Assembly: GCF_031432975.1 (NCBI RefSeq)
Contig: NZ_CP133838.1
Location: 1,240,001-1,304,000, forward strand
Source of the DNA: Buttiauxella selenatireducens
GTDB taxonomy: Bacteria > Pseudomonadota > Gammaproteobacteria > Enterobacterales > Enterobacteriaceae
Length of the DNA stretch: 64,000 nucleotides
Direction: 5' to 3'
Under the pieces are notes generated by a model that saw only the letters and a program-made list of their open reading frames with translations, had not been told where the DNA came from and did not search any database. This document shows, piece by piece, positions 38,560 through 46,325 of the stretch. The position numbers were made by a program, and so were the translations under genes. Position 1 is the stretch's first letter, and the number at the start of each line of letters is the position of its first letter.

Positions 38560-40620
38560 TTATTCAGGTTGTTCCAGAGATTTAATGTAATCGTAAATCG
38601 CCAGTTGGGAGCGTACCTTGCGGCGGTTACCGCGTGGAACATAGCGATTACTGAGTTCTTTGTCGATATAGCGCGCTTTCACGGTATCGCTGAACAGTAT
38701 CTCAATAATATCCAGCACCCGCTGTTTCAGGCGCGGATCGAGAATAGCGACAGCCACTTCGATGCGGTAATCAATGTTTCGTGTCATCCAGTCAGCGGAG
38801 GAGAGATAGACTTTCTTATCGCCGCCGTTTTCAAAGATATACACGCGATCGTGTTCCAGATAGCGGTCAACGATGCTGATCACACGGATGTTATCGCTGA
38901 TGCCATCCAGATTAGGGATAAGCGAACACATGCCGCGCACCAGTAAATTAACTTTCACCCCTGAGCTTGAAGCCGCATACAGGCGATCGACCAGCCCTTT
39001 ATCGACCAGGTTATTCAGTTTCAGAGTAATGCCAGACGGTTCGCCGTTTTGCGCATTCGCAATCTCTTTGTCGACCAAATCATAAAGCAGACGACGCGAG
39101 TTTTGTGGTGAAACCATCAGATGCTCAAACGTGACCGGGCGATACGGATTTTCGATAAAGTTAAATACCCGACGCACTTCATTGGTGATGCGCGCATCCG
39201 CGGTGAGCAGCGAATAATCGGTATAAAGACGCGCGGTTTTCTCGTTAAAGTTACCGGTGCCAATGTGAGCGTAACGCACCACTTCGTCACCTTCTTTACG
39301 GGAAACCAGGAAGAGTTTGGCGTGAATTTTAAGGCCTGGCGCGGAGAAAATAACGTGTACGCCCGCTTCAGTCAGGCGCTTCGCCCAGTGAATATTCGCT
39401 TCTTCATCAAAACGTGCCTGCAACTCAACCACAACGGTGACTTTCTTCCCGTTATGCGCGGCATGAATCATCGATTCGATAATGCGCGAGTCTTTCGCCA
39501 CGCGATAAATATTGATTTTAATCGCCAGCACACTTGGGTCGAATGACGCCTGGCGTAGCAATTCCAGCACGTGCTCAAAGGTGTGGTACGGATAGTAAAG
39601 CAGCACGTCACGGTTACGGATTGCATCAAAGCCGTTGCGGAATTTATCGAACCAAATATGGCGCAGGCGCGGCAACGGTTTATTGACCAGATTGGCTTTG
39701 CCAACATTTGGGAAGCTAATGAAATCTTTGAAGTTATGGTAACGGCCGCCAGGCACGATGGAATCGTAGTTAGTGATCGTCAGCTTATTACGCAGCATTT
39801 CGACCATCGCATCGGGCATATCTCGTTGATAAACAAAACGCACCGGCTCCGCGGTTAAACGCTGTTTGAGGCTCGAAGACATCAATTCCAGCAGACTGGA
39901 TTCCATTTCGGTCACCAGGTCGTACTCTGCGTCGCGCGTCATTTTCATCGAATAGGCGTTCAGTGCGTCGTAATCGAAGAAGCCTTTGAAAATGTCGTCC
40001 AGGCAATAGCGCAAAATGTTATCCAGCAGGATCATCGGCTTGCGGCGGCGCGGCGCTTCAGGCGGCAAATTCACAAAGCGCGGCACTTTATCGGACGGGA
40101 TTTCCAGCAGCGCGTAACGAATATCGCTGCCCTGAATAATTTCTACCGCCAGATAGGTGTAATCATCTTTGAGGAACTGCACCAAATCGGTGTCGTGGTT
40201 AATCAAAATAGGTGTGATGTGCTGGCGCAGATAATGTTTGAAATAGTGGCGTAGCCAGTTTTGCTGATTGGGGGAAAGCTGGCGTTCGTTGATCAAGAAG
40301 ATCTGATTACGCGCCATTTCCAACAGCAGATCGTTATACAACCCATCAAATTCTTGATCAGCTTTCAGAACACGCGCCTGAATTTTATTGAGTAAATGGC
40401 GCGAATTGGGAGCCGTACCTTGTTCTTCACTGATCAGGATCCGCCGTTTAAGTTCAGCGAATCGGACCTTGTAAAATTCATCAAGGTTATTCGAATAGAT
40501 GCCGAGAAAACGCATTCTCTCGATCAGCGGATTAATTTTGTCCGCAGCTTCCTGGAGCACACGTTCGTTAAAAGACAACCAGCTCAGTTCTTTTTCGATA
40601 TACAGCTTATCCTGACCCAT
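38560..40620 (-). CDS. ppk: Polyphosphate kinase
   Basis: Reversibly polymerises the ATP gamma-phosphate into polyphosphate (686 aa; E. coli 688). The four-domain PPK1 architecture is recognisable: N-terminal helical domain ([19 protein letters not shown]), head domain, and the two phospholipase D-like C-terminal domains. The autophosphorylated histidine lies in [24 protein letters not shown]. It is divergent from the unknown gene at 40811 with 190 bp between. In E. coli purN is the neighbour on that side, so the 40811-45653 segment is inserted here. Confidence 0.98.
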
Positions 40621-40810: not shown

Positions 40811-42472
40811 ATGTGGGAAACACGGGCGCTTGAACTGAACAACCAGGAGCTATGGAACTGGCATCAAGCCTGCCAGTTTGTTGATTATGCCTGTGCGCAT
40901 AACTTTAATACTGTGGTGATTGGGCAAACCGATTTACTGGGCAAGCTTGTTACCCCGGCGGGCTACACTCCTGCGCAACACAATGACCGTATATCCGTGC
41001 ATCAGCGTGGCTGCTGCGTTTACCTGAATCGCTTAGCGCAGTACTGCAAGGCACGTGGCTTGCGCTTCTATCTTCAGGCTAAAGAGATTGGATTTCCGGC
41101 TGATTTACTCCTGCAACAACCCCAGTTGTTCGATGGCCACGGCGGCTTGCGTTTTGATGCTGATTTCTGGAGCCAGTATCTGGCAGATAAACTGGCGCTG
41201 GTCTGTAAGCAGATTCCCGCGATAGATGGCTTGCTCCTGGCGATTTCAAATACTGACAGTCTGGTGCCAATCGCGGCGCCAGACTGGAAAGCGAACGTGG
41301 CGCAGCAAAAAAAATCGGCCAGTACGGCACTTTACCGTTGTTGTTTTAATGCCGCCGCCCAGGTCATGAAACGCCACCACAAACAACTAGTATTGCGTCT
41401 TTTCCCCGCCAGTATCGACGGAGTTGAGCCGGTTCTCGACGCTATCGCTGGTTTGCCCGCCGATGTGGCGGTCTCGATAAAACTCACACCGGAACGCTTC
41501 TGGCCCGAATTCCCTAATAACCCGGCATTGCTGGCAGTATCAGACCGAGAAGTCTGGGTGGAAGTGGACGCTGCCGGGGAAGAAGTGTGTTGGGGAAACC
41601 TGCCGTTTATCCGTGCGGATGAAATTCAGGGACGATTACTGTGGTGCCAGGCCAGCAACCCGGCTATCAAAGGGGTGTTGTGCAAAGCAAGCTGGGAAGG
41701 TATCGATAATCACAGTGTGATTGGAACCTTAAGTGAGTTTAACCTCTTTTGTTGTGCAAGGTTTCTCAAGTCAGACGCCCTGTCAGAAAGTACATCGCAA
41801 CTGCTGAAGCGTTGGCTAATGGAGTGCTGGCAATGGCAAGCGGATGAACAGCAGCTTCAGATTCTGAAGGTGTTGTTTGAACAGGCGCATCAGGTGATTT
41901 ACAGCGCCATTTACGCTCGTCACCATGTTTTTCATCGCCATAGTCTGTTACCTGAAAGCTACGGTCAGGTGGTCTGGAGTTTGTATGGCCAGCTTAACCG
42001 CAACCACTGGTTGCCCGGCTCAGCAGATGACATCGTCTTTGACAATCAGGATGCCGCAGGGGCATCCCGGAAACTCTCCTTGATCGCGGCAGAGAAAGAT
42101 ATAGCGTGGCAAGGGGCGGAAAATGTACAGCGTCAGGCATTCGAGTTTGCGCAAAATGCCGACTTCCCTCCGGCATTAGCTCAGCGCTGGCAGACTGAAT
42201 GGCAAGGGCTGTTTTTATATTGCCGGGCGTTTATTCATGCCCAAAAAGCCTTTTTTACGCTGCACTATGCTCGCGAAGTTGAGAATAACTGGAGCCTGCG
42301 TGAAGTGTGCCAGGCCAATATTCAGGCACTCTATGGAACGGCTCATGAAATGGAGGATTTTTGCGGCAAATGGAGTGATATCCCTCCTGCCATGCATGTC
42401 ATGTTTGATGCCGGAAGAGCCAGAGCGCTTGCCGGGAGTTTAAGCAAAGAGTTAGCGAAACTGACAGGCTAG
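40811..42472 (+). CDS. Putative TIM-barrel glycoside hydrolase of unknown specificity
   Basis: 553 residues, not recognised as a named family member. No signal peptide or membrane segment, so cytoplasmic. The N-terminal part alternates predicted strands and helices (TVVIGQ, RGLRFYLQAKEIGF, IDGLLLAISNTD, QLVLRLFP, VAVSIKLTPERFWP, REVWVEVDAAGEEVCWG, IKGVLCKASWEG), the pattern of a beta/alpha barrel; the blocks after residue 200 resemble TIM-barrel glycosidases related to alpha-glucuronidases (GH67-like), but this is from memory of patterns only. The C-terminal 250 residues look all-helical. It lies beside GH105 and GH28 genes for pectin fragments, so removal of a uronic acid or other side-chain sugar is a possible role. 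The promoter region holds TATAAA at about 40791; upstream AGGGGCTGGGG may be the ribosome binding site. Confidence 0.6.
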   Translation: MWETRALELNNQELWNWHQACQFVDYACAHNFNTVVIGQTDLLGKLVTPAGYTPAQHNDRISVHQRGCCVYLNRLAQYCKARGLRFYLQAKEIGFPADLLLQQPQLFDGHGGLRFDADFWSQYLADKLALVCKQIPAIDGLLLAISNTDSLVPIAAPDWKANVAQQKKSASTALYRCCFNAAAQVMKRHHKQLVLRLFPASIDGVEPVLDAIAGLPADVAVSIKLTPERFWPEFPNNPALLAVSDREVWVEVDAAGEEVCWGNLPFIRADEIQGRLLWCQASNPAIKGVLCKASWEGIDNHSVIGTLSEFNLFCCARFLKSDALSESTSQLLKRWLMECWQWQADEQQLQILKVLFEQAHQVIYSAIYARHHVFHRHSLLPESYGQVVWSLYGQLNRNHWLPGSADDIVFDNQDAAGASRKLSLIAAEKDIAWQGAENVQRQAFEFAQNADFPPALAQRWQTEWQGLFLYCRAFIHAQKAFFTLHYAREVENNWSLREVCQANIQALYGTAHEMEDFCGKWSDIPPAMHVMFDAGRARALAGSLSKELAKLTG

Positions 42473-42487
42473 TGGGGAAAAAAGCGG

Positions 42488-42524
42488 ATAAAAAAGGTGG
42501 ATACAGCAAAAGCTTTATCCACCT
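42488..42524 (-). terminator. Intrinsic terminator of the GH105 gene
   Basis: AGGTGGATA and TATCCACCT form a 9-bp stem, extended inside by AGC/GCT around AAAA. On the minus strand the stem is followed by TTTTTTATCC, so it ends leftward transcription just past the GH105 stop. On the plus strand no U-tract follows. Confidence 0.8.
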
Positions 42525-42544
42525 GATAGCTAAACAATTAATGG

Positions 42545-43651
42545 CTAGATGTGTAAACGCAGTGACTCAACCAGGCAGAGGATCGCCATCGCTTGACCAT
42601 AAGGCATTGAGGTCAGAGGAATGTTTCGATAGTGGTCCAGGTCGTGCCCCATCGCCGTACCAAACGAAACTTGCGTCAGTTCCCCTTGTGGCGTGATGTG
42701 GTTGATTACACCCTCGGTTGCACGTAGTGCCACTGGAAGCCAATGGCTCTCAAGGTAGCCCAGACGAACGGCCTTGAAGATGCCAGCCGCGAACCCGGCA
42801 CTGGCAGAGGCTTCAACATAGCTTTCTGGATCGTTAAGCAGGGTTGGCCACAAACCATTTTCCGCCTGGCATTCGGCAAGTGCTGCAACCTGATTGCGTA
42901 ACACATTGCACAGTTGGCGATAAAGCGCGTCCTGCGGCGGTAAATCTAACAGCTCCAAAAACTCAGGGATGGCGAGTGTTATCCAACTATTCCCACGAGC
43001 CCATAGCGCCCCAGCAAAATGGTGTCGTCCATCAAAGTTCCAGCCGTGATACCACAGCCCCGTTTTAGGTTCAGCCAGGTACTGAATATGCTGAGTAAAC
43101 TGATATTTCGCTTCTTCAATCCACTCTGGTTTGTTGAGTAATTTACCGATGCGAGCAAGTGGAAGCACTGCCATCATCAGCGTGTCGTCCCAGATTTGCT
43201 GGTGATGGTCATTTTCATAAGTGACATGCTGGAAACAGCCTTCATCGGTACGCGGCAGTTGATGCTGGAGCCAGCGCCCCCAGGTTTCCAGGTAGGGGAG
43301 CCATTGTGGATTTGGCTGATCTTCATAGCATAATGCCAGCGTCAGGAACGGGCAGGCGGTATTGACGTTCTTAATTGGCGTGCCTTCGGCAAAACGATCG
43401 CTAAACCAGAGGTCGATAATCTCTTTGGCGCGCTCAGAGCCACTTACCTGATAGTAGCGATATAAACCAAACAGACCGATTCCGTGTGTCCATTCCCAGC
43501 CAGCCCACCCTTTGGTATCAACAATCCGGCCATCACTGAGGCGTTGTAAAAAGCGTCCATCAGCGTCTTTGATGTCGACCAGTCCACCAATCAGGCTATC
43601 AATGAGCTCGGTAGTGTGTTCACGGGTGGGTGATAGCGGTGTATTTGTCAT
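42545..43651 (-). CDS. GH105 unsaturated rhamnogalacturonyl hydrolase (YteR/YesR-like)
   Basis: Intracellular hydrolase of family GH105 (368 aa; YteR 373) that splits unsaturated galacturonyl-rhamnose or related disaccharides left by pectin lyases. The alpha6/alpha6-barrel is suggested by GWAGWEWTHGIGLFGLYRYY, and the catalytic region IWDDTLMM places the general acid at D155/D156; HFAGALWARGNSWITLAIPEFL is also typical. The start MTNTPLSP is chosen because AAGGA stands 7 bp upstream; the frame is open 19 codons further. No signal peptide. It diverges from the GH28 gene over a region with two CRP sites and is followed by a clear terminator. Confidence 0.9.
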   Translation of the reverse strand: MTNTPLSPTREHTTELIDSLIGGLVDIKDADGRFLQRLSDGRIVDTKGWAGWEWTHGIGLFGLYRYYQVSGSERAKEIIDLWFSDRFAEGTPIKNVNTACPFLTLALCYEDQPNPQWLPYLETWGRWLQHQLPRTDEGCFQHVTYENDHHQQIWDDTLMMAVLPLARIGKLLNKPEWIEEAKYQFTQHIQYLAEPKTGLWYHGWNFDGRHHFAGALWARGNSWITLAIPEFLELLDLPPQDALYRQLCNVLRNQVAALAECQAENGLWPTLLNDPESYVEASASAGFAAGIFKAVRLGYLESHWLPVALRATEGVINHITPQGELTQVSFGTAMGHDLDHYRNIPLTSMPYGQAMAILCLVESLRLHI

Positions 43652-43851
43652 GGTCTGTTCCTTAAACAGAAGTTGAGGCTGGAGTCCGATAAAAAAGGAG
43701 TTCGGCATTTACGTTACGAAGTGTGGGCAACATTCTCCACGACCCCTGCAGGGGTTTTATCTGGTAATGCGAAGGAGGCGAGGAAATACCGAACAAATGT
43801 TCACTGTTCCACGCAGTTGGGGTGACATAGAGGCGTAGAGGGGCAATAAAG

Positions 43852-43867
43852 TGTGACTTACGTCACT
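43852..43867. promoter_or_regulatory. CRP binding site 1
   Basis: TGTGACTTACGTCACT matches TGTGA-N6-TCACA at 9 of 10 fixed positions. It is centred at 43859.5, 208 bp upstream of the GH105 ATG. Confidence 0.75.
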
Positions 43868-43893
43868 AATGGAAAAGCACCCCTCAAACCTAC

Positions 43894-43909
43894 TGTGAAG
43901 CAGATCACC
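43894..43909. promoter_or_regulatory. CRP binding site 2
   Basis: TGTGAAGCAGATCACC matches TGTGA-N6-TCACA at 9 of 10 fixed positions. Its centre (43901.5) is 42 bp from site 1, four helical turns, so both dimers lie on one DNA face. It is about 140 bp upstream of the GH28 ATG. Confidence 0.75.
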
Positions 43910-43920
43910 TTTTTATCCTG

Positions 43921-43938
43921 CGCAAAACGTATTTTGCG
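43921..43938. promoter_or_regulatory. Palindromic repressor operator candidate
   Basis: CGCAAAACGTATTTTGCG has perfect 7-base arms around CGTA. It lies 11 bp downstream of CRP site 2, where RNA polymerase would bind for the GH28 promoter, as expected of a repressor site. The style is that of LacI-family operators, but no such gene is nearby. Confidence 0.5.
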
Positions 43939-44041
43939 AGCGAGACTGCATTTCTGCCCGTCAGGCAGGTTTAACCCGTAGAGCGCAGAAATGGGGCGTG
44001 GTGAGATATCAGGATCTTTTACATTGAGTGATGAGAGAACC

Positions 44042-45397
44042 ATGAAACTGACTCTGACCCCACAATGGGCGAGTAATGACGATAAAAATCAAGATACGCT
44101 CCGCTTCCAACAGGCGCTGGATACACTGGCACAGCAGGGTGGGGGGACGCTGGAAGTTGAGAGTGGCTGCTACAAACTGGGCGGGTTAACACTGCATTCG
44201 AATACCACACTTTATTTGCAGGCAGGCGCGGAATTGGTGGTTAGCGATGATTATCGTCATTTCCAGCAGGCCACGACGCAAAGTACAGCAGAGTGTTCCA
44301 ACTGGGCTTTTCTGTACGCAATGGGCGCGCACAATATTACGGTGTGTGGCGCCGGAAAAATTAACGGCAATGCGGAGGGGTGGTTTGCACCTCATGTTGA
44401 TGAAATGGGGTATCGGCAGCCTGCCAAACACCGTCCACGCATGATTGTTTTCGAAGATTGCACTAAAGTCCAACTGCAAGATTTTACCATTGAGAATGCC
44501 CCGATGTGGACCATTCACCTCGTCGCGTGCCAGCAGGTGAAAGTAATTGGTATTACCGTGGATAACGACCTGTCGATGGCGAATACGGATGCGCTGGACA
44601 TCGATAGCTGTCAGCAGGTGCATATCAGCAACAGCCACTTCAGTGCAGCCGATGACACCATTTGCCTCAAGACCAGTCGTAAACCCGCGCCGTTGCAACG
44701 TGCAACACGGCAGGTTGTCGTGAGTAATTGCACGCTTCGCTCTAAAAGCTGCGCGTTGAAAATTGGTACAGAAACATGGGAAGACATCGAAGATATTTGC
44801 GTAACCAACTGCGTCATCTATGAGTCAAACCGGGCGATAGGGCTTGTTTCCCGGGATGGCGGACGTTTGCGTCGCATGATTTTCAGCAACATTACTTTTA
44901 GCTGCGAGATGGCTCATGCTTGTCACTGGGGTAAAGCCGATCCTGTTTATCTTTCAGTGCGCGCCCGTGACCCGGAAATCCATCCAGGTGAAATCGAATT
45001 TATTCAGTTTCGCGGTCTTTCAGGAGTGAGTGATGGGGCCATTAATATGCACAGCGAGTTACCAGGACAAGTAAGACATATCGTTCTTGAGGGCCTGCAA
45101 CTCACGCAAAGGGTCAGCTCCTCACCTGAACAAGGTTTGTATGACATTCGCCCACCTTGTAATCCGTTATCACCAACCGGAATGGGGCTGGACAACGCCT
45201 GGTGCCTGAATCCGCAAACGCAACGAGCTTTCGGCGTGGAAGCGTATCCTGGCGGTTTGCCTGGTCTGTATGCCAACGGCGTTGAAGATTTGGCGCTGCG
45301 GAATGTAGAAATTTATCGTCCACAACCGTTGCCAGCAGGCTGGAATGAGCGGGAGTGCGTGTTAATCAATTGCGATGGAGTCAAACAAGATGATTGA
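44042..45397 (+). CDS. GH28 family polygalacturonase-like glycosidase
   Basis: 451-residue right-handed beta-helix protein of family GH28, which hydrolyses galacturonan or rhamnogalacturonan bonds by inversion. Catalytic aspartates are visible as NTDALDID (N181-T-D183) and ADD (D204, D205). The usual NTDG has Ala and the G-H-G segment is replaced by SCALKIGTET, as in bacterial exo-type or unsaturated-product subfamilies, so endopolygalacturonase activity is unlikely. No signal peptide, which points to cytoplasmic action on imported oligomers. The start MKLTLTPQWAS has GAGAGAACC upstream; a frame to 43991 lacks a binding site. The end overlaps the SemiSWEET gene by 8 bp. Confidence 0.88.
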   Translation: MKLTLTPQWASNDDKNQDTLRFQQALDTLAQQGGGTLEVESGCYKLGGLTLHSNTTLYLQAGAELVVSDDYRHFQQATTQSTAECSNWAFLYAMGAHNITVCGAGKINGNAEGWFAPHVDEMGYRQPAKHRPRMIVFEDCTKVQLQDFTIENAPMWTIHLVACQQVKVIGITVDNDLSMANTDALDIDSCQQVHISNSHFSAADDTICLKTSRKPAPLQRATRQVVVSNCTLRSKSCALKIGTETWEDIEDICVTNCVIYESNRAIGLVSRDGGRLRRMIFSNITFSCEMAHACHWGKADPVYLSVRARDPEIHPGEIEFIQFRGLSGVSDGAINMHSELPGQVRHIVLEGLQLTQRVSSSPEQGLYDIRPPCNPLSPTGMGLDNAWCLNPQTQRAFGVEAYPGGLPGLYANGVEDLALRNVEIYRPQPLPAGWNERECVLINCDGVKQDD

Positions 45398-45653
45398 TTT
45401 AGCCTGGCTTGGGCCTGTTGCCGCGTGCTGCACTACGGGGTCATTTGCGCTACAGGTGCTGCATATCCTGAAGAATCGCGATACTAAAGCCATATCCCTG
45501 AGCATGTATCTGGTGTTTGTTTTCGGCGTGCTCTGTTGGTTGCTATATGGAATGAGTAACGGGGATGTTCCCCTGATGATAGCAAATGGGATTACGCTTG
45601 TGCTGGCGGCGACAGTGCTGCTGATGAAAGTGGTGAACGAACGAGCGCGATAA
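45390..45653 (+). CDS. SemiSWEET family sugar transporter
   Basis: 87-residue protein with three hydrophobic helices (about 4-24, 37-55, 60-80), matching bacterial SemiSWEETs, which dimerise to form a sugar uniporter in the inner membrane. Sugar-pocket residues of E. coli SemiSWEET align with W50 and N66 here. The PQ motif is LQ (L21-Q22, codon CTA at 45450), so the hinge proline is absent. The start ATG overlaps the GH28 end, with GGAG 9 bp upstream; an ATG at 45375 has no such site. Co-translation with GH28 suggests transport of a sugar released or used by that enzyme. Confidence 0.85.
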   Translation: MIDLAWLGPVAACCTTGSFALQVLHILKNRDTKAISLSMYLVFVFGVLCWLLYGMSNGDVPLMIANGITLVLAATVLLMKVVNERAR

Positions 45654-45683: not shown

Positions 45684-46324
45684 CTACTCTTCTGCGGCAT
45701 AACCTTGAACTGGTAACGCTTTGCCATCAAGCCAGGCGCTATTATCACGCATTTCCAGACGCCCTTCGATAAACCAGGACACCACCAGCGGATAAATTGC
45801 ATGCTCCTGGTGCTGCACACGAGCAGTGATGTCGTCTTCATCGTCACCGTCAAAAACCGGGACTTTGGCCTGAAGAATCACCGGCCCACCATCGAGTTCT
45901 TCGGTAACAAAATGCACCGATGTCCCGTGGACTTCATCACCGTTCTCCAGCACCTGACGATGGGTATTCAGGCCAGGATACTTAGGCAATAAAGAAGGGT
46001 GGATGTTGATCAGACGGCCAGCGTAATGCGTGACAAATTCAGGGCTAAGAATCCGCATGTAACCGGCGAGCACCACCAGATCCGGTGCGTAAGCGTCGAT
46101 CTCAAGCATTAGCTCACGATCAAACGCTGCACGATCGGCGAATTGGTTGGCGGTTAACGCGTGGGCAGGGATCCCTGCCTCACGCGCACGTTCCAGACCG
46201 AAAGCATCGGTTTTATTACTGAATACAGCCGCGAGGGTGCCGTTAATCTTTTTGAGCTTACAGGCATCAATGATTGCTTGAAGGTTAGTCCCGCTGCCGG
46301 AAATTAGCACCACAATGCGTTTCA

Positions 46325-46325
<1 letters not shown>
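45684..46325 (-). CDS. purN: Phosphoribosylglycinamide formyltransferase 1
   Basis: Third step of de novo purine synthesis: formylates GAR with 10-formyl-THF (213 aa; E. coli 212). The N-terminal GSGTNLQAIIDA binds the phosphate, and the catalytic set is visible as N-I-H in GRLINIHPSLLP and Asp in TSVHFVTEELDGGPVI. Its ATG shares one base with the purM stop (TAATG), so it is translationally coupled to purM. The C-terminus differs from E. coli only in the last residues. Confidence 0.98.

Follow-up and report, generated by a model that had tools for sequence, protein, structure and literature searches.

We analysed a 64-kb stretch of a 5.2-Mb Buttiauxella genome, labelled G000 (G000:C1:1240001-1304000; this whole stretch is the window below), in which a small block of genes lies between ppk and purN. 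The block consists of four intact open reading frames (ORFs) encoding a TIM-barrel protein (TIM), a GH105-type hydrolase, a GH28 enzyme and a SemiSWEET. The initial annotation had described these four genes at a site where E. coli has ppk next to purN, and the presence of the block was confirmed. In the single E. coli region examined, that of LSN03-016011/A, the ppk1-purN gap is 170 bases with no annotated gene inside. The family assignments given to three of the genes also held, with PF07470 scoring 317.4 bits (gathering cut-off 26.6) for the GH105-type hydrolase, PF00295 72.3 bits (gathering cut-off 22.9) for the GH28 enzyme and NF037968 SemiSWEET_2 94.4 bits (cut-off 80) for the SemiSWEET. 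The features of the block, followed by its two flanking genes, are:

40811-42472, plus strand: TIM, a TIM-barrel protein of 553 amino acids (aa), putatively a remote GH67/GH138 uronidase relative
42545-43651, minus strand: GH105-type hydrolase (PF07470), no signal peptide seen
43685-43687, no strand: junction at which the GPH importer gene of relatives (about 1.5 kb) is missing, from alignment to B. agrestis (L057 12847/14358)
43852-43866, plus strand: CRP-like site TGTGA-N6-TCAC, also in A111 and B. agrestis
43894-43908, plus strand: second CRP-like site, 42 bases downstream of the first
44042-45397, plus strand: GH28 enzyme of 451 aa (PF00295), no signal peptide seen
45390-45653, plus strand: SemiSWEET of 87 aa, LQ not PQ at residues 21-22, its start overlapping the GH28 stop by 8 bases
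38560-40620, minus strand: ppk ORF, left flank outside the block, 98 to 100% identical in three named Buttiauxella loci
45684-46325, minus strand: purN ORF, right flank outside the block

The supported start of GH105 is at 43651, with AAGGAA upstream, and those of GH28 and SemiSWEET are at 44042 and 45390. The overlap between the GH28 end and the SemiSWEET start, already noted in the initial annotation, is also 8 bases in B. agrestis, and in both B. agrestis and B. gaviniae the reading frame immediately before the corresponding SemiSWEET start is interrupted by a stop. A single four-gene operon was ruled out, since GH105 lies on the minus strand; the block therefore comprises at least two transcription units by strand. 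The proposed lack of signal peptides in the three enzymes was borne out by a simple test, the best 15-residue mean hydrophobicity within the first 45 residues, which is not a signal-peptide predictor and was run with one control. By this test no signal-peptide-like start was found in TIM, GH105 or GH28, whose values were 0.17 to 1.04 compared to 2.51 for the control, a secreted solute-binding protein.

To place the block among its relatives, a genome collection of 84,980 species was scanned with an alignment of TIM orthologues, which returned 44 loci. Two distant loci (L098 and L099) were excluded, and the counts below use the remaining 42 orthologues, which share 56 to 99% identity and carry enterobacterial genus names. 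With its counterparts in Buttiauxella sp. A111 and B. agrestis, the TIM gene of the window shares 99% and 92% identity, respectively. All 42 loci have GH28 or GH105 no more than about 10 kb from TIM (GH28 in 19, GH105 in 41). Six of the loci are ppk-purN islands, and five of these six carry a GPH importer gene between GH105 and GH28, whose protein matches PF13347 (MFS_2, a GPH-type importer). The five-gene island (TIM, GH105, GPH, GH28, SemiSWEET) was found in three of the 42 loci, namely in B. agrestis, B. gaviniae and a Pluralibacter metagenome-assembled genome, and the islands of Klebsiella grimontii and K. michiganensis have GPH without SemiSWEET. The exact four-gene form, with SemiSWEET and without GPH, was found at one locus, that of A111.

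Alignment of the Buttiauxella block to B. agrestis showed that the sequences on both sides of 43685/43687 line up, with about 1.5 kb lost between them. A111 retains about 70 bases whose translation, judged by eye, resembles the beginning of GPH, indicating that the gene was once there. The GPH importer gene is thus deleted in the Buttiauxella block and in A111. The left breakpoint is common to both, so a single shared loss is possible, although not proven. This deletion rules out the idea that the block never included an importer, and the view of the block as a compact unit complete without another transporter could not be upheld. A close orthologue of the lost GPH protein is present in two of twelve Buttiauxella genomes (100% identity in the genome from which the GPH query came and 85% in the other). 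The best two GPH proteins of the genome analysed here are 38% identical to the query, and one of them adjoins a second GH105 gene.

Several further observations were made on these loci. The B. gaviniae TIM (L093 10001-11650) is only 62% identical to the TIM described here, while its ppk is 98% identical, and island genes may therefore be exchanged between species faster than their flanks. In Pectobacterium sp. PL152 and Kluyvera genomosp. 3 (L092 and L097), TIM matched only as frame-broken pieces. Twenty-three of the 42 loci (e.g. L082:11941-14334) encode, in the vicinity of TIM and GH105, a protein of about 800 aa (shorter in some loci), termed X798. X798 had no Pfam match over cut-off, and its predicted model, with a mean predicted local distance difference test (pLDDT) score of 58.1, was too poor to classify.

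Selection was examined by comparing the Buttiauxella block with that of A111, both of which lack GPH. Synonymous and non-synonymous changes numbered 30/4 in TIM, 24/3 in GH105, 24/4 in GH28 and 2/0 in SemiSWEET (80/11 in sum). The ratios of non-synonymous to synonymous rates (dN/dS) were 0.035 for TIM, 0.034 for GH105 and 0.046 for GH28, and those of flanking genes ranged from 0 to 0.104. The remaining block genes are under purifying selection. Relative to B. agrestis, the synonymous divergence of GH28 and SemiSWEET exceeds that of their flanks, which hints at recombination at these two genes. Exact matches to TGTGA-N6-TCAC, which we take to be a CRP-like consensus, occur twice in the window, each time in the GH105-GH28 interval; the expectation was 0.72, and two or more occurred anywhere in the window in 17 of 100 shuffles. 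Both sites are present in A111 and B. agrestis and are absent from six other loci checked. Together with the GH105 ribosome site, they survive the GPH deletion.

These data bear on two accounts of a block that has lost its importer. In the first, the SemiSWEET took over the import of a small pectin product formed outside the cell for use by GH28, GH105 and TIM, making GPH dispensable. The deletion of GPH in a lineage that retains SemiSWEET, and the purifying selection on what remains, would fit such a takeover. However, B. agrestis, B. gaviniae and Pluralibacter have both SemiSWEET and GPH, so one did not simply replace the other; the genome still has further GPH genes; and the pocket of EcSemiSWEET, described in PMC4309421 as suited to a saccharide or disaccharide, is small for an oligomer. 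We consider this account unlikely. In the second, the block is an eroding remnant with no selected role after the loss of its importer, its genes persisting by inertia. The loss of one of the five genes seen in relatives would agree with this, as would the finding that a close GPH orthologue occurs in only two of twelve Buttiauxella genomes, one of which supplied the query. Yet none of the four frames is broken, dN/dS is low in all three enzymes, no amino-acid change separates the SemiSWEETs of the two GPH-less genomes, and the GH105 ribosome site and two CRP-like sites outlasted the deletion, which makes erosion quite unlikely.

We next consider the SemiSWEET and its gene neighbourhoods. A search of Enterobacteriaceae gave 51 SemiSWEET matches in 48 of 392 genomes. 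Eight of the 51 have GH28 or GH105/GH88 at a distance of at most 10 kb, compared to 0.48 expected from gene density (tail 1.9e-8, a figure that ignores kinship, uses rounded genome sizes and comes from a search profile including five sequences from such loci). The linked SemiSWEETs fall into three arrangements, and this genome has two of these. The first is the ppk-purN island (G000 and G201), the second a SemiSWEET divergent from a GPH-GH28 pair (G000, G281, G094 and G207), and the third a locus with GH105, X798 and a phosphotransferase system (PTS) gene (G152 and G084, with PTS_EIIC in G084). Both SemiSWEETs of this genome adjoin its only two GH28 genes, the second at a distance of 2.7 kb. 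The SemiSWEET-GH28/GH105 link is thus not due to chance, and the link to GH28 that had been proposed for this gene is strengthened by the second locus and by the overlap kept in B. agrestis. The second SemiSWEET, of the PQ type, is at L038 7730-14651 (G000:C1:3401730-3408651), divergent from GPH and the other GH28, after which come a sulfatase gene and a radical SAM/SPASM gene. At L173 (G048:C45), in another genome, a SemiSWEET from a separate group lies near purN, in a run of apparent monooxygenase and oxidoreductase genes; a similar run is found at L168.

The SemiSWEET of the block has LQ at residues 21-22, as have the other ppk-purN island SemiSWEETs, and so lacks the hinge proline of the PQ motif in helix 1; we therefore refer to it as a SemiSWEET homologue of LQ type. 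According to the parts of two papers available to us, this proline is the hinge of EcSemiSWEET, where P21A reduced sucrose uptake almost to background (PMC4309421), and Pro and Gln are highly conserved across 1,922 SemiSWEET sequences (PMC5972207). At the positions of the EcSemiSWEET pocket, the block protein keeps the usual neutral residues Thr15, Trp50 and Asn66, so a neutral substrate seems likelier than a uronate.

The motif and its context were compared in 49 Enterobacteriaceae SemiSWEET rows (47 of the 51 family matches plus L057 and L093), of which 22 have LQ and 27 have PQ. Contexts were assigned by Pfam on one representative each for the GH4 and dehydrogenase types, with presence per locus determined by tblastn. 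Sixteen of the 49 rows are beside GPH and GH4 genes, 14 are beside a mannitol-dehydrogenase-family gene (named dalD from its likeness to PMC5972207), ten are pectin-linked and nine are outside these contexts. LQ was found in 6/10 pectin-linked, 14/14 dehydrogenase-linked, 2/9 other and 0/16 GH4-GPH-linked rows. The GPH-GH28 group, including the second SemiSWEET of this genome, makes up the four PQ rows among the pectin-linked ones. Outside Enterobacteriaceae, all 64 distinct SemiSWEET matches from other families of the phylum have PQ and none has LQ (26 matches below 65 bits were excluded); three loci of another family, one of them Pfam-scanned, have GH4 and PTS beside SemiSWEET. Nineteen LQ rows are compatible with one clade (approximately unbiased (AU) test, p 0.49), and 17 of the rows form a supported set (99/90). 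It is very improbable that the SemiSWEET is a hitchhiker next to GH28 by chance, with a substrate unrelated to pectin: its LQ-type relatives do lie beside a dehydrogenase gene in 14 rows, and a single origin of the ten pectin-linked rows was not shown (AU p 0.096, few alignment columns), but the eight linked matches in three different arrangements and the GH28 overlap in both the Buttiauxella block and B. agrestis speak against it.

The enzymes were characterised by profile and structure comparisons. The nearest solved structure to GH28 is 3jur, an exo-poly-alpha-D-galacturonosidase. The GH105-type protein is nearest to 3qwt and 3pmm (540.9 and 522.7 bits, nearly full length), whereas NCBIfam would name the gene (42545-43651) beta-galactosidase BglB (463.6 bits, cut-off 420), a name that may be misleading. 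TIM matched no Pfam family at E 1 or E 10, the GH67 model included, and no NCBIfam model at E 1, and a PDB sequence search with the TIM profile gave weak unrelated matches only. An AlphaFold2 model of TIM (pLDDT 87.1, predicted template modelling score (pTM) 0.89) was searched with Foldseek. The top match was GH138 BP0997 (E 4.5e-12, 11% identity), an entry titled as targeting pectin rhamnogalacturonan II, and below it ranked GH67 alpha-glucuronidases, followed by GH20, GH84-type and GH115 entries.

We then aligned 37 TIM-family rows with five GH67 proteins using HHalign, with seven controls (reversed GH67 and six unrelated alignments). In local mode the 37-row profile matched GH67 at 97% (E 8.6e-11), and the controls reached at most 1.1%. 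The 24 TIM orthologues alone gave 86%, and the eight paralogues alone gave 0.2%, below their 2.4% against the ppk control. In global mode the 37-row profile gave 98%, and orthologues alone and paralogues alone each gave 0.1%. TIM E257 aligns with one GH67 catalytic position and E228 adjoins a second, where the GH67 Asp aligns to Arg229 of TIM; D149 is near the third by our own reading of the strands, at a point where the alignment is gapped. We presume the catalytic roles of these GH67 carboxylates, the aligned Asp included, other than that of E292. E292 is named in a PDB title. D149 and E228 are conserved in 42/42 orthologues and E257 in 41/42, while the aligned paralogues lack D149 and E257. 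One such paralogue (L039 9016-10578, G000:C1:4821016-4822578; about 25% identity) is divergent from a GFO/IDH/MocA oxidoreductase gene. Collectively, the predicted fold and profile suggest that TIM is a uronidase-like protein, remotely related to GH67 and GH138 rather than a filed member of either. TIM hints at a uronidase-like family not yet classified, whose genes neighbour GH28 or GH105 at every one of the 42 orthologue loci.

We infer from these results that the block may encode a cytosolic pathway for imported pectin oligosaccharides, with the SemiSWEET releasing one neutral sugar, a reading to which we give slightly less than an even chance. Oligomers would be produced outside the cell and imported by another carrier, ancestrally the GPH symporter of the block and, after its loss, possibly one of the two GPH proteins encoded elsewhere in the genome. 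In the cytosol, GH28, GH105 and TIM would remove galacturonosyl-type residues from small imported fragments, and the uronate products would enter the UxaC and KduI routes; this genome has UxaC and two KduI-family genes. The SemiSWEET, probably translationally coupled to GH28, would act as a passive uniporter for one freed neutral sugar, such as rhamnose or galactose, moving it down its gradient, most likely outward. This reading is favoured by the constant presence of GH28 or GH105 near TIM, the uronidase-like fold and profile of TIM, the recurrent SemiSWEET-GH28/GH105 link and the conserved overlap, the GPH gene in five of the six islands, the other SemiSWEETs that neighbour both a glycosidase and an importer (GH4 with GPH or PTS), the purifying selection between the two GPH-less genomes, and the neutral pocket residues.

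Several points weigh against this pathway. The outward direction is its least secure part, given that the protein lacks the hinge proline; nothing computed here demonstrates either the direction or the substrate of the SemiSWEET. Since the proline needed for sucrose uptake by EcSemiSWEET is absent, the LQ protein may, by analogy, transport poorly or differently. The LQ type is not tied to pectin, given the mannitol-dehydrogenase-family neighbours of 14 of the 49 rows, and SemiSWEET is absent from two of the six named ppk-purN islands. GH28 scores 437.1 bits against NF051861 PglB, below the cut-off of 600, and its activity is only putative. If GPH was lost twice independently, the purifying selection may be partly older than the loss. 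Overall, the interpretation in the initial annotation is partly supported. A bolder proposal, which we regard as doubtful, is that LQ-type SemiSWEETs, to date known from Enterobacteriaceae alone, form a distinct class that works without the hinge proline; sugars set free inside the cell by glycosidases or polyol dehydrogenases would leave through them passively, and the one described here would be the sole carrier left in a cytosolic pectin module with a new uronidase family.

The cytosolic pathway can be compared with known systems. Where pectin is broken down by GH28 and GH105 after GPH or ABC import, as in Klebsiella, Pectobacterium, Dickeya and Brenneria loci, the two enzyme genes likewise occur with a transporter gene, but in the block the local importer has been lost and a SemiSWEET added. 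Among the paper titles and abstract openings examined, none connects pectin, galacturonate or glycoside hydrolases with a bacterial SemiSWEET, and the part of PMC9122927 available names SemiSWEET in a list of transporters. The contexts described by Jia et al. 2018 (PMC5972207, in the part available) resemble the block in placing SemiSWEET beside a glycosidase, sometimes with an importer: alpha-glucosidase and MelB in Citrobacter freundii and alpha-rhamnosidase in Lactobacillus, with arabinitol dehydrogenase in Lonsdalea. In contrast to the block, no pectin context was seen there, 'galactur' and 'hydrolase' occurring 0 times in the main text. The block ties a SemiSWEET to a defined enzyme set by overlap, recurrence and selection, which makes its substrate and direction testable and offers a concrete handle on the role of these poorly understood bacterial proteins. 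TIM resembles GH138 (BP0997) and GH67 alpha-uronidases in predicted fold and GH67 also in profile, but it matches no family model and has Arg229 at the position of the GH67 Asp. The block SemiSWEET shares its length, family and Thr15/Trp50/Asn66 with EcSemiSWEET (4x5m) and other solved SemiSWEETs, whereas the PQ hinge proline of EcSemiSWEET is replaced by leucine. This natural loss of the proline in a whole subgroup provides a test of the accepted hinge mechanism.

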